Shown here piece by piece: positions 9,378 to 37,953 of a DNA stretch of 64,000 bases. The notes below the pieces were generated by a model that worked only from the letters and a program-made list of their open reading frames with translations, did not search any database and was not told where the DNA came from. The stretch is from Alkalitalea saponilacus (GTDB lineage Bacteria; Bacteroidota; Bacteroidia; Bacteroidales; Marinilabiliaceae). Every line of letters begins with the position of its first letter. Position 1 is the stretch's first letter. Made by a program: the position numbers and the translations under genes. Where the stretch lies: assembly GCF_900168165.1 (NCBI RefSeq), contig NZ_FUYV01000008.1, positions 78,183-142,182 on the forward strand, in the 5' to 3' direction.

Positions 9378-9792
9378 ATTTTATATTTTTGCATTCGTAC
9401 ACGTTGAGTTTTTTCCTGATCTGCTGGATTTGAGGGGCGTTAGCCCTGAAATCTGGATGGTATGTTATACATGAACATTTTTAGTTGCGGTGAGTTTTCT
9501 TTTATGCAGAAAGATGTCAGGGGTATGCCCCTACTTTAAATGGAATCATAAGCAAGCGCATAATCAGACCAGGGATGCATATCATCTGTCTATAATTTGT
9601 ATTAAGTAACCAGATAGCCTGCCGTGTGCTTTCGGGAGAACTCACCAAATAATCATTCCCTTTGTGTGAGAAATTTTTGACTTCCTGTATCCGCCGATAC
9701 TCATGACTTGTTTAATGGTAAAAAAGAGTATTTTTATAGCGGAATACGGAGTGTCGATTTCTATTCTTATTATATTTTATCAAGTTCTCAAT
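9378..9792. other. Intergenic region with two short GC hairpins
   Basis: No gene is supported here. It contains AGGGGCGTTAGCCCT (9433-9447) and AGGGGTATGCCCCT (9519-9532), isolated short palindromes of the kind that form the array at 36894-37146. The remainder is unremarkable. Confidence 0.5.
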
Positions 9793-20540: not shown

Positions 20541-20586
20541 TAAATGCATTTTAACCACGTATGTGGTTAAAATTACCATGCATTTA
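20541..20586. repeat. Nested inverted repeat with AACCAC/GTGGTT arms
   Basis: TTTTAACCAC (20549-20558) and GTGGTTAAAA (20563-20572) pair around GTAT. Outside them, TAAATGCA (20541-20548) and TGCATTTA (20579-20586) form a second pair. The same arms occur at 37007-37022. Confidence 0.75.
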
Positions 20587-30333: not shown

Positions 30334-30942
30334 ATGTCCAATCGTTTTTTTTCATCTCATTATATTCTTTTGCCAGGAGGTCAGATTGGCCGATGGCCAA
30401 TCATTCATTTTGACGATCATGGCACCATCATTCAGATAGAATCGGATTTTGAGAAATTCAAGGAGAGACCGGGGCTTGAATTTCAAAGTGGAATGATGAT
30501 TCCGGCCTTTATTGATATCGCTCCAACCAATATTCATTTTAATCCCGATGTCAAATTAATAAACAGACATTTTTCGCGTGGAACCATCATTCTTGGAGTT
30601 TCCGATGTTGCCTCATGTGAGCAATCAGGTTTTCCTTTGCTTGTGAAATCACTGGATGACGGTTCCAGTCTTCCCCAAGAAGCCGGAAGAGATGCTGCTC
30701 AAGTTAATACCCCGCTGTTCGAAAGGGTTAGAAGCCGTTCAGGTTTCCCTATTTCCAAACTTGCACACATTTGTGAGCAAGCATCTGAAGCAGGAAGATT
30801 CAGAAGTTTAGGACAACTTGCAACTGGGAAATCACCAGGAGTTCTTTTGCTAAAAAATTTTGATAATACAAATTGGACATTGTTGCCGCATTCTGAGATA
30901 AAATGGCTGATTAAACCTCATGTTGACGTCAGCAACAGATAA
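30334..30942 (+). CDS. Shortened amidohydrolase-like protein lacking the catalytic barrel
   Basis: A 202-residue protein. The start is taken as the ATG at 30334, preceded by GGAGA; an in-frame TTG at 30316 is less likely. The N-terminal part (YILLPGGQIG, IIHFDDHGTIIQIES, GLEFQSGMMIPAFID) looks like the beta-sandwich and entry to the barrel of metal-dependent amidohydrolases (aminofutalosine- or guanine-deaminase type), where PGFVNAHCHLE would come next; here it reads PAFIDIAPTNIHFNP, with no HxH. The C-terminal part (ISKLAHICEQASEAG, LATGKSPGVLLLKNFD, LLPHSEIKWLI) matches the usual amidohydrolase ending. The central roughly 200 residues with the other metal ligands are absent. It is therefore probably not an active hydrolase. 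Similarity is judged by eye and moderate. Confidence 0.65.
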   Translation: MSNRFFSSHYILLPGGQIGRWPIIHFDDHGTIIQIESDFEKFKERPGLEFQSGMMIPAFIDIAPTNIHFNPDVKLINRHFSRGTIILGVSDVASCEQSGFPLLVKSLDDGSSLPQEAGRDAAQVNTPLFERVRSRSGFPISKLAHICEQASEAGRFRSLGQLATGKSPGVLLLKNFDNTNWTLLPHSEIKWLIKPHVDVSNR

Positions 30943-36354: not shown

Positions 36355-36817
36355 AAGTTATATCAAATGGCTCGCTCTGTTTTTTGCGATAATGACTGTG
36401 TCCTGCGCTGACAGGGTCGTGTTTGAAGAGAGGCTGGAAATGGACATAAGAGGTTGGCATAAAGATGAACCTGCCAGTTTTACTGTGGAAATAGCCGATA
36501 CTTCTCAGATATTGGATATGGGGCTGACTTTTAATCATACAGATGGATATCCCTACAGTAATTTGTGGTTGTTTTTAACCATTAAGGGACCCGATCAGGT
36601 TCAAATAACTGATACTTTGGAATTGTTTTTGGCTGAGCCATCTGGTAGATGGCTGGGACGAAGGAAAAAAGGCAATTATGAAATATCTGCCTTATACCGT
36701 CATGAGATAAAAATGGCTCACCCGGGTGAATATCAGTTTTCTGTTGTACACGGTATGCGACGGGAGTTACTACCACATTTAAAGTCTGTTGAGTTTTGGG
36801 TGCAGTCTAGCCGATAG
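36341..36817 (+). CDS. gldH: Gliding motility/T9SS-associated lipoprotein GldH
   Basis: A 158-residue lipoprotein from the ATG at 36341, preceded by GGAG; longer in-frame starts would bury the signal. The signal ends MTVSC, with Cys22 as lipid site. The mature chain carries the GldH pattern: DIRGWHKDEPASFTVEIAD, then LTFNHTDGYPYSNLWLFLTI, TDTLELFLAEPSGRWLGRR and EYQFSVVHGMRRELLPHLKS, with a C-terminal VEFWV. GldH is needed for gliding in Flavobacterium; in non-gliding Bacteroidota it persists with an unclear role. It is translationally coupled to ricT. Confidence 0.93.
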   Translation: MVITKSYIKWLALFFAIMTVSCADRVVFEERLEMDIRGWHKDEPASFTVEIADTSQILDMGLTFNHTDGYPYSNLWLFLTIKGPDQVQITDTLELFLAEPSGRWLGRRKKGNYEISALYRHEIKMAHPGEYQFSVVHGMRRELLPHLKSVEFWVQSSR

Positions 36818-36893
36818 AGTCTTCTTGTTGCGAATAGGAACAAAAGGAGGAATCGATTGAAGGGGTAATTTGCTTGTGCGAATAAAATAATTC

Positions 36894-37146
36894 AAGTTTC
36901 GCATTATAGCTAATTTGTTGTAAATTGAACAAGTTGAACCCTTTAAGGGTTCTGAATCCGTTGATTATTAGTCAACCGTAAATTCCATTTATGGTTATTC
37001 AAGATCAACCACATTCGTGGTTAAAAGCCTGAAAGGCTTAAATGTATTTAGTCGCGGGTGCTAACCCGGGGGTAAAGGTAGATTTTATATTCAGGGGCAA
37101 CCCTGAAAAGGGTTGAATATAGAGAGAATTAGCAAGTGCGAAACTT
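36894..37146. mobile_element. MITE-like hairpin array with terminal inverted repeats
   Basis: A 253-bp non-coding block between gldH and trmB. The left end (AAGTTTCGCA at 36894-36903, then GCTAATT at 36909-36915) is matched in inverse orientation by AATTAGC (37127-37133) and TGCGAAACTT (37137-37146). Between them are six hairpins in a row: GAACCCTT/AAGGGTTC (36936-36952), ACCGTAAAT/ATTTATGGT (36975-36995), AACCAC/GTGGTT (37007-37022), AAGCCT/AGGCTT (37025-37039), CGGGT/ACCCG (37055-37068) and AACCCT/AGGGTT (37099-37114). No ORF and no clear target duplication is seen. A REP/RAYT-type array or a structured RNA is an alternative. Confidence 0.62.
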
Positions 37147-37170
37147 AAGTAAATAACATTTAAACACCAC

Positions 37171-37953
37171 ATGGGTAAGAATAAGCTTCAAAAATTTGAA
37201 GAGATGGATGGATTTCCGCATGTAATACAGGCGGAATTTGATGAGGTTTTTCAAAAAGACTACAAATTAAAAGGGAAGTGGAGTTCCGATTTCTTTGGAA
37301 ATCTGAACCCTCTGGTATTGGAGTTGGGATGTGGAAAAGGCGAATATACTGTTGGTTTGGCACGAAGATATCCACAAAAGAATTTTATAGGAGTTGATAT
37401 CAAAGGGTCAAGAATGCATGCGGGGGCATCAGCATCTTTTAAGGAGGAATTAAAAAATGTGGGGTTTATTCGAACGCACATTGAAATGATTAACTCTTTT
37501 TTTGCATCAAACGAGGTTGATGAGATATGGCTGACTTTTCCAGATCCGCAAATGAACAAAACCCGAAAGAGACTTACTTCAACTCGTTTTCTGGATCTTT
37601 ATGCCCGATTTCTGAAGCCCGGAGGTCAAATTCATTTAAAAACCGACAGCTGGTTCCAATATTCATATACAAAAGCAGTATGCGAGGCTAACAACCTAGC
37701 GGTCATTCATGATTACATGGATTTGCACAATGATGATGCACCCTTAGAACTTAAAGATATAAAAACTTATTATGAGGAGAGATTTATGGCGCACTCTGTT
37801 CCCATAAAATATCTCTGTTTTATTCTGCCTGAGCGGCATCAGTTGGCTGAACCTGAAATTGATATTCCAAAAGACATTTATCACAATGCCGGACGAGGTG
37901 TAAAATTGTACCACAATGACGAAAAAGCACCGCCAAAACTTGATGTCAGATAA
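37171..37953 (+). CDS. trmB: tRNA (guanine-N7-)-methyltransferase
   Basis: SAM-dependent enzyme that makes m7G46 in tRNA. It has 260 residues; the core is at about 40-215. Motif I is LVLELGCGKGEYTVGLA. FIGVDIKGSRMHAGA, then EIWLTFPDPQMNKTRKRLTS (the PDPxxKxRHxKRR-like catalytic and tRNA-binding stretch) and PGGQIHLKTDSWFQY follow. About 35 extra residues at the N-terminus and a C-terminal tail (GRGVKLYHNDEKAPPKLDVR) extend the usual length of about 220. The last 11 bp overlap the next gene. Confidence 0.96.
   Translation: MGKNKLQKFEEMDGFPHVIQAEFDEVFQKDYKLKGKWSSDFFGNLNPLVLELGCGKGEYTVGLARRYPQKNFIGVDIKGSRMHAGASASFKEELKNVGFIRTHIEMINSFFASNEVDEIWLTFPDPQMNKTRKRLTSTRFLDLYARFLKPGGQIHLKTDSWFQYSYTKAVCEANNLAVIHDYMDLHNDDAPLELKDIKTYYEERFMAHSVPIKYLCFILPERHQLAEPEIDIPKDIYHNAGRGVKLYHNDEKAPPKLDVR

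Follow-up and report, generated by a model that had tools for sequence, protein, structure and literature searches.

The window, as we call the whole 64,000-nucleotide stretch of Alkalitalea saponilacus DNA (genome G000) that was analyzed, contains a 259-bp element (36891 to 37149) in the gap between a gldH-like gene, whose stop codon ends at 36817, and trmB, which starts at 37171, leaving 21 bp between the end of the element and the trmB start. (The two gene names are those of the first-pass annotation and are consistent with the reading frames seen.) The block had been described there as lacking an open reading frame (ORF) that would explain it and as bounded by inverted ends, and both descriptions held. 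The ORF list of the window has no entry of at least 60 amino acids overlapping the block, and the ends carry a perfect 10-bp inverted repeat, AAGTTTCGCA/TGCGAAACTT (36894 to 36903 and 37137 to 37146), which matches at 11 of 13 bases when 3 outer base pairs are added on each side, together with a further inverted pair, GCTAATT/AATTAGC, lying inward of it. Directly outside the element is a 7-bp target duplication that is not exact, with 6 of 7 bases equal. In its size (under ~500 bp), its lack of a transposase ORF, and its terminal inverted repeats (10/10 bases, or 11/13 with the outer bases), the element has the form of a MITE. Its parts are listed in Table 1.

Table 1. Parts of the element and its immediate flanks (positions are those of the window)
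Feature	Position	Strand	Remark
Left target-site copy AAAATAA	36884–36890	.	6/7 bases equal to 37150–37156; the empty site of genome G041 has a single ATAAATAAC
Left terminal inverted repeat TTCAAGTTTCGCA	36891–36903	+	Similar ends in other genomes
Inner inverted repeat GCTAATT	36909–36915	+	Pairs with 37127–37133
Left arm of hairpin unit	36934–37044	+	Covariance model R1, 113 bits; included among the training rows of R1
Hairpin h1 GAACCC/GGGTTC	36936–36952	+	
Hairpin h2 GTTGA/TCAAC	36960–36976	+	Weak, 5-bp arms, read from sequence; stretch not conserved in other genera in the alignment
Hairpin h3 CCGTAAAT/ATTTATGG	36976–36994	+	Includes one G-T pair; covaries most among the stems
Right arm of unit, mirror image	37002–37117	-	R1, 38.5 bits, E 8.6e-5; overlaps the left arm at h4-h5
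Hairpin h4 AACCAC/GTGGTT	37007–37022	+	
Hairpin h5 AAGCCT/AGGCTT	37025–37039	+	
Hairpin h6 CGGGT/ACCCG	37055–37068	+	5-bp arms; read from sequence
Hairpin h7, two overlapping alternatives	37090–37115	+	TTCAGGG/CCCTGAA, 37090–37107; CAACCC/GGGTTG, 37098–37115
Inner inverted repeat AATTAGC	37127–37133	-	
Right terminal inverted repeat TGCGAAACTTAAG	37137–37149	-	
Right target-site copy TAAATAA	37150–37156	.	

Six perfect or near-perfect hairpins had been claimed for the block. Six or seven are indeed present, but not all are strong; h2 and h6 have 5-bp arms. Four pass a strict test (perfect arms of at least 6, loop of 3 to 6), compared with a mean of 0.5 and a maximum of 2 in 40 shuffles. Folding of 36885 to 37155 gave z scores of −6.8 as DNA, −7.5 as plus-strand RNA, and −7.0 as minus-strand RNA, and in each of the three cases none of 200 shuffles folded as well. 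No match at gathering score to any of 4227 Rfam families was found in the window.

The interior of the block consists of two mirrored hairpin arms, with h1-h3-h4 facing h5-h6-h7. We aligned 22 copies over the stems h1, h3, h4, and h5 (alignment A1) and built from this alignment a covariance model of one arm, R1. In A1, 92% of cells were paired and 46 cells had two-sided changes, against 18 ± 4 in shuffled alignments (0 of 500 shuffles reached 46) and at most 10 in slid versions, with h3 accounting for the bulk of these changes; the fold used was that of the window row, and the same picture could arise if entire hairpins had been exchanged. Two other measures were not outstanding: the number of pairs with two-sided changes in A1 was 8, against 6.1 in shuffles (reached by 47 of 500), and the count of pair types was reached by 248 of 500. 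The order h1-h3-h4 and a TATTCA-TTnAA linker were kept across several genera in the alignment. In the window, the plus- and minus-arm matches to R1 are both helped by the h4-h5 overlap because h4-h5 is palindromic. In contig C446 of genome G030, however, the two arms lie apart (for example, at locus L265, 1067 to 1174 on the plus strand and 1303 to 1403 on the minus strand), and thus the mirror image is real there. Of 393 genomes drawn from the order, 83 had an R1 match at E ≤ 0.001, as did 64 of the 206 genera, in a search with strict filters that scored 9 candidates per genome; 3 of the 83 genomes (G000, G041, and G047) had supplied training rows.

It had also been proposed that single hairpins at 9433, 9519, and 20549 are modules of the element spread through the genome, a proposal to which the R1 scan lent no support. 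The hairpins near 9433 and 9519 are weak and have no R1 match at E ≤ 1, and we dropped them as modules. The AACCAC hairpin does exist (at 20548), with only a partial R1 match (E = 0.14), and other isolated AACCAC hairpins occur elsewhere in G000 (L002, L003, and L007). The one in the window (20548 to 20573) is an isolated, perfect 11-bp hairpin, ATTTTAACCACGTATGTGGTTAAAAT; similar ones at L002 and L007 are, like it, perhaps terminators. R1 also matches 30729 to 30806 of the window, with an E value of 0.025.

The first-pass annotation had suggested looking for an empty site in a relative and for further copies, and both were found. In G041, the only other genome of the genus examined, whose trmB product is 93% identical to that of the window, the gldH-trmB gap is an empty site reading ...GCTTGTGCGAAATAAATAACTTAACACACCAC-ATG, whereas in the window the element stands between ...GCTTGTGCGAATAAAATAA and TAAATAACATTTAAACACCAC-ATG. 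The target AAATAA thus occurs once in the empty site and twice around the element. A reciprocal case is provided by copy L060 in contig C16 of G041, whose flanks are contiguous, and hence empty, in G000; for another G041 copy, L059, no joined flanks were found in G000, and it therefore yields no empty site. Long similarity to the element occurs at five places in G041 (79 to 94% identity, several truncated), and of three G041 copies that we aligned (alignment A2), one is interrupted and one truncated. G000 has a single full copy, and the presence of several copies in one genome applies to G041. An insert of ~84 bp interrupts L060 (~1672 to 1755) and has TGAAAGG on both sides; some 45 bp of it match, in whole or in part, 20 places in G000 among the matches listed and represent another short dispersed repeat.

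The hairpin unit, as detected by R1, was absent from all 29 of the other trmB loci examined, including that of the sister genome (trmB matches were found in 69 other genomes, and at a few of the 29 loci the upstream gene is not gldH). The result argues against a structured RNA fixed at this locus, one of the readings offered at first pass. Nor did we encounter either of the outcomes named in that annotation as contrary to a mobile element, namely the lack of any second copy together with a lack of compensatory changes, and an unbroken alignment of the gap across distant species.

Similar ends occur well beyond the genus. A scan of 84,980 species, each represented by one genome, for the paired ends CAAGTTTCGCA...TGCGAAACTTRAG at a distance of 220 to 250 bp gave 17 stretches of other genomes. 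They come from Segatella copri; several Prevotella or Prevotellaceae, Bacteroidaceae, and Bacteroidales or Bacteroidia MAGs; a Marinilabiliaceae MAG (three stretches); Cloacimonadota (two, one a MAG); and single MAGs labeled Deltaproteobacteria, Caldithrix, and Selenomonadales. MAG labels may be wrong; the Selenomonadales stretch (L314) is nearly identical to one from a Bacteroidaceae MAG (L315). The like ends outside Bacteroidota could possibly reflect either transfer between phyla or MAG contamination. Most of the 17 interiors are, by eye, again rows of hairpins of other sequence, that of S. copri having mirrored hairpins, three against three, and R1 matched 5 of the 17 at E ≤ 0.001 (L314, L315, L317, L325, and L327). 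Two Cloacimonadota stretches (L319 and L321) and the Deltaproteobacteria-labeled one (L318) have like ends with exact 8-bp duplications and other hairpins inside.

For statistics we used 49 pairs of window-like (type-1) ends. Exact 7-bp duplications flank 10 of the 49 (shuffled pairing, mean of 0.24 and maximum of 3 in 500) and exact 8-bp duplications flank 6 (mean of 0.17, maximum of 2), and mean flank identity at length 7 is 0.57, against 0.40 ± 0.02 when shuffled; in the other 33 pairs neither length is exactly duplicated, and some chance pairs are among the set. Among 29 elements selected from the 49 for a length of 200 to 350 and near-perfect ends (L314 being left out as a near-duplicate of L315), the interiors have a mean of 2.21 strict hairpins, compared with 0.30 in shuffles, and a median folding z of −9.3. 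Six of these elements lack any strict hairpin, and the folds of L133 (z = −0.1; a probable chance pair), L318 (−1.2), and L120 (−2.5) barely stand out.

One 2.2-Mb genome, G068, has 338 matches to a 19-base end pattern (at most 3 mismatches), whereas the same pattern reversed has 2. Its type-1 end matches often lie near contig ends (L070 to L077 and L153 to L160), which suggests a burst of such elements that broke the assembly. End-like matches occur also in G035. Those in G038 were rejected because they belong to another repeat, a dispersed one (L144 to L147) with inverted self-similarity around TAAGTAAAGTTTCTCAAGT and nine exact copies among the matches listed. Plasmid records held no match to the window element; matches to the S. 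copri element occur in three Segatella records, of which one covers 81% of that element and has matches at 4 places. No viral contig had either paired-end pattern. Single ends were found in 45 viral stretches, 3 of them with a partner within 3.5 kb; these three (L409 and L419, near-identical stretches from phage-like contigs that encode an exonuclease domain, and L397, which has a tail tube protein) were judged to be chance pairs within phage genes.

A RAYT (Y1_Tnp) or DDE transposase with matching ends had been named at first pass as something to look for. On the DDE side, no such ends were found for the family searched. PF01609, the DDE family that we searched, gave 59 matches in 9 genomes; at none of the 30 loci examined did matching ends surround the gene, and the family had no match at all in G041 and G068, both of which carry type-1 elements. 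Neither these loci nor the long end-pairs contained an autonomous element with window-like ends. A 2.96-kb end-pair (L358) considered as a parent turned out to be two MITEs around two glycosyltransferase-8 genes.

The hairpin unit is linked to a different class of enzyme. At E ≤ 0.001, R1 matched 7 of 35 Y1_Tnp (IS200-like transposase) loci, none of them a training row, which count as 6 distinct places because L265 and L270 overlap, and it matched none of 59 control loci (29 trmB and 30 PF01609), even at E ≤ 1. All 7 belong to the 25 loci whose protein has a Y..Q..HH motif; at the same threshold, there was no match at the 8 loci with a YIH.NP motif or the 2 with neither. Conversely, a Y..Q..HH motif lies within 1.5 kb of 7 of the 28 best order-level R1 loci (the best of their genomes, with the window locus L281 and training row L282 excluded). 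Six of these seven proteins were scanned, and all are PF01797 proteins of 148 amino acids; the seventh (L308) is a fragment. At L298, L305, L306, and L310, the Y1 gene sits between a minus arm and a plus arm, 8 to 75 bp from each, as at L298, where the minus arm spans 926 to 1035, the gene 1050 to 1493, and the plus arm 1501 to 1611. A hairpin resembling the CAACCC/GGGTTG alternative of h7 occupies the corresponding position in units near Y1 genes. On contig C446 of G030 (L265 and L270), the units form a tandem row that includes two identical Y1 genes, with gene-less units beside them.

Hairpin density was 5.79 per kb at the 25 Y..Q..HH loci (4.58 without the 7 matched by R1) and 4.75 at the 8 YIH.NP loci (L259, L267, L273 to L275, and L278 to L280), compared with 1.77 around trmB and 1.70 around PF01609 genes. 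Since it is raised with both Y1 types, density alone is not specific to Y..Q..HH, and only the R1 unit is; the YIH.NP loci, with raised density though without an R1 match, may therefore have repeats of their own. In the portion of a survey of Y1 enzymes that was available (PMC6006769), subclass 1.2 has the motif YIKNQKEHH, a median length of 148 amino acids, and the REP entry “no,” and is said to be “generally without typical terminal IS200 secondary structure features,” while atypical structures are given for subclass 2.6. By motif and length only, the unit-flanked Y..Q..HH genes would belong to subclass 1.2. The first-pass idea of a REP/RAYT-type array was thus borne out in one respect, that the interior unit flanks Y1 genes (the window copy does not), though no GT[AG]G foot was seen, by eye, 0 to 2 nt 5′ of h1, h3, h4, or h5 on the plus strand.

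Similar units recur within other kinds of ends. In genera g7, g10, and g18 they lie inside CACGGCAATYGCATTTAA-like ends with 10-bp duplications; across 19 such pairs, mean flank identity at length 10 was 0.73, against 0.29 ± 0.04, and 5 were exact (shuffled mean of 0.25, maximum of 3). At L232 to L234, CACGGCAATYGCATTTAA-like ends enclose other palindromic DNA. At three order-level loci (L285 to L287), the unit is enclosed by perfect or near-perfect GAAACTGTTTAAATTT-like ends of 15 to 20 bp with TTA or TAA (TWA) flanks, ends that we take to be IS5-like. The remaining 21 of the 24 order-level units tested showed no clear terminal repeats (L291 was marginal and of low complexity); 4 of the 28 loci (L294, L298, L308, and L310) were left out of this test, and units with only one arm had their far end assumed.

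With its terminal inverted repeats, duplicated target, empty sites, and dispersed copies, the block is very probably a non-autonomous MITE of 259 bp, inserted just upstream of trmB and carrying a mirrored hairpin unit inside, as its first description as MITE-like and non-autonomous had proposed. If the empty site is ancestral, the insertion is later than the split from the nearest relative examined. A DDE-type transposase encoded elsewhere would bind the YTYAAGTTTCGCA-like ends and cut and paste the element, and its staggered cut would leave the AT-rich duplication of 7 to 8 bp. The unit lies on both sides of Y..Q..HH Y1 genes in several genomes and recurs within other terminal repeats, and it may be a REPIN-like repeat belonging to those Y1 enzymes, with the MITE as its carrier. 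The insertion signature and the position of the unit around Y1 genes, taken together, therefore make the element look like a DDE-type MITE carrying the REPIN-like unit of another transposase class. In gldH-trmB transcripts it would probably fold, and it may serve there as a putative terminator or mRNA stabilizer. Why MITEs with different ends should hold the doublet is a matter for guesses, among them capture near palindromes, dual mobility, and terminator-like insulation. A bolder version, which we consider rather unlikely, is that the six-hairpin unit represents the right end of a Y1 subclass 1.2 transposon fused to its left end, the REP that this subclass was missing, and that several unrelated DDE-type MITE families enclosed it independently. 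Such elements may therefore be movable by two chemistries, which, if true, would be cut-and-paste of double-stranded DNA at the outer ends and processing of single strands at the hairpins.

That a Y1 transposase moves the whole block through single-stranded DNA, as in a pure REPIN/RAYT system, the inverted ends being just the outer stem of the fold, is improbable. The flanking of Y1 genes by the interior unit fits this account, as do the 21 of 24 order-level units (the window aside) without a clear terminal repeat, from which it follows that the unit may spread without one. Yet duplications of 7 to 8 and of 10 bp accompany two kinds of ends, and identical ends enclose quite different interiors; to our knowledge, Y1 elements of the IS200/IS605 kind do not make target duplications. 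Still less likely, and by a long way, is a structured noncoding RNA or cis-regulatory leader of trmB. The strong plus-strand RNA fold (z = −7.5), the end of the element 21 bp before trmB, and stems that covary across copies would agree with such a leader, but the block folds well on both strands, has no Rfam match, and is represented by no unit before trmB in the sister species or at 28 further trmB loci. A chance accumulation, between two inverted repeats, of separate terminators or of single REP-like insertions is hardly credible, since the isolated similar hairpins in the genome (20548 to 20573, L002, L003, and L007) have to be set against an h1-h3-h4 order and linker kept across several genera and against the G041 empty site, which shows that the array was inserted as one piece.

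Among titles and abstract openings of the open-licence literature, we found no description of such a MITE or of this repeat beside subclass 1.2 enzymes. The unit is a candidate cognate repeat for a Y1 subclass that has none in the part of the survey consulted (PMC6006769). As far as the available portions of their descriptions go, QMITE2, Chunjie, and MITECca01 (Cardinium) share with the window element its size, terminal inverted repeats, target duplication, noncoding and mostly intergenic nature, and a stably folding transcript, which here is a predicted fold (PMC10969869, PMC9769881). MITECca01 has been traced to an IS982 element (PMC10969869, PMC9769881), whereas for the window element no parent IS was found and the interior is a mirrored hairpin unit common to Y1 loci. 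BrickBuilt of Porphyromonas gingivalis is likewise a Bacteroidales MITE with a repeated interior, but that interior is a direct-repeat minisatellite and its ends are GAGACCTTTGCA-like, and the accessible part of its description mentions no hairpin unit (PMC4596501). With REPIN/RAYT systems, the unit has in common an inverted doublet of hairpin repeats beside a Y1 gene and scattered elsewhere; it differs in having three hairpins per arm, a conserved linker, no GTAG foot that we could see, and enclosing terminal repeats with a target duplication. Nonautonomous derivatives of IS200/IS605 elements (PATEs) also have hairpins near their ends and a Y1 enzyme supplied elsewhere. They are not known to have terminal inverted repeats or to make target duplications, whereas the window element has both. 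The element appears to link DDE-type MITEs and Y1-associated hairpin repeats, which are usually treated apart, and since elements with the same ends occur in S. copri, a cultivable gut bacterium, the idea is testable there.
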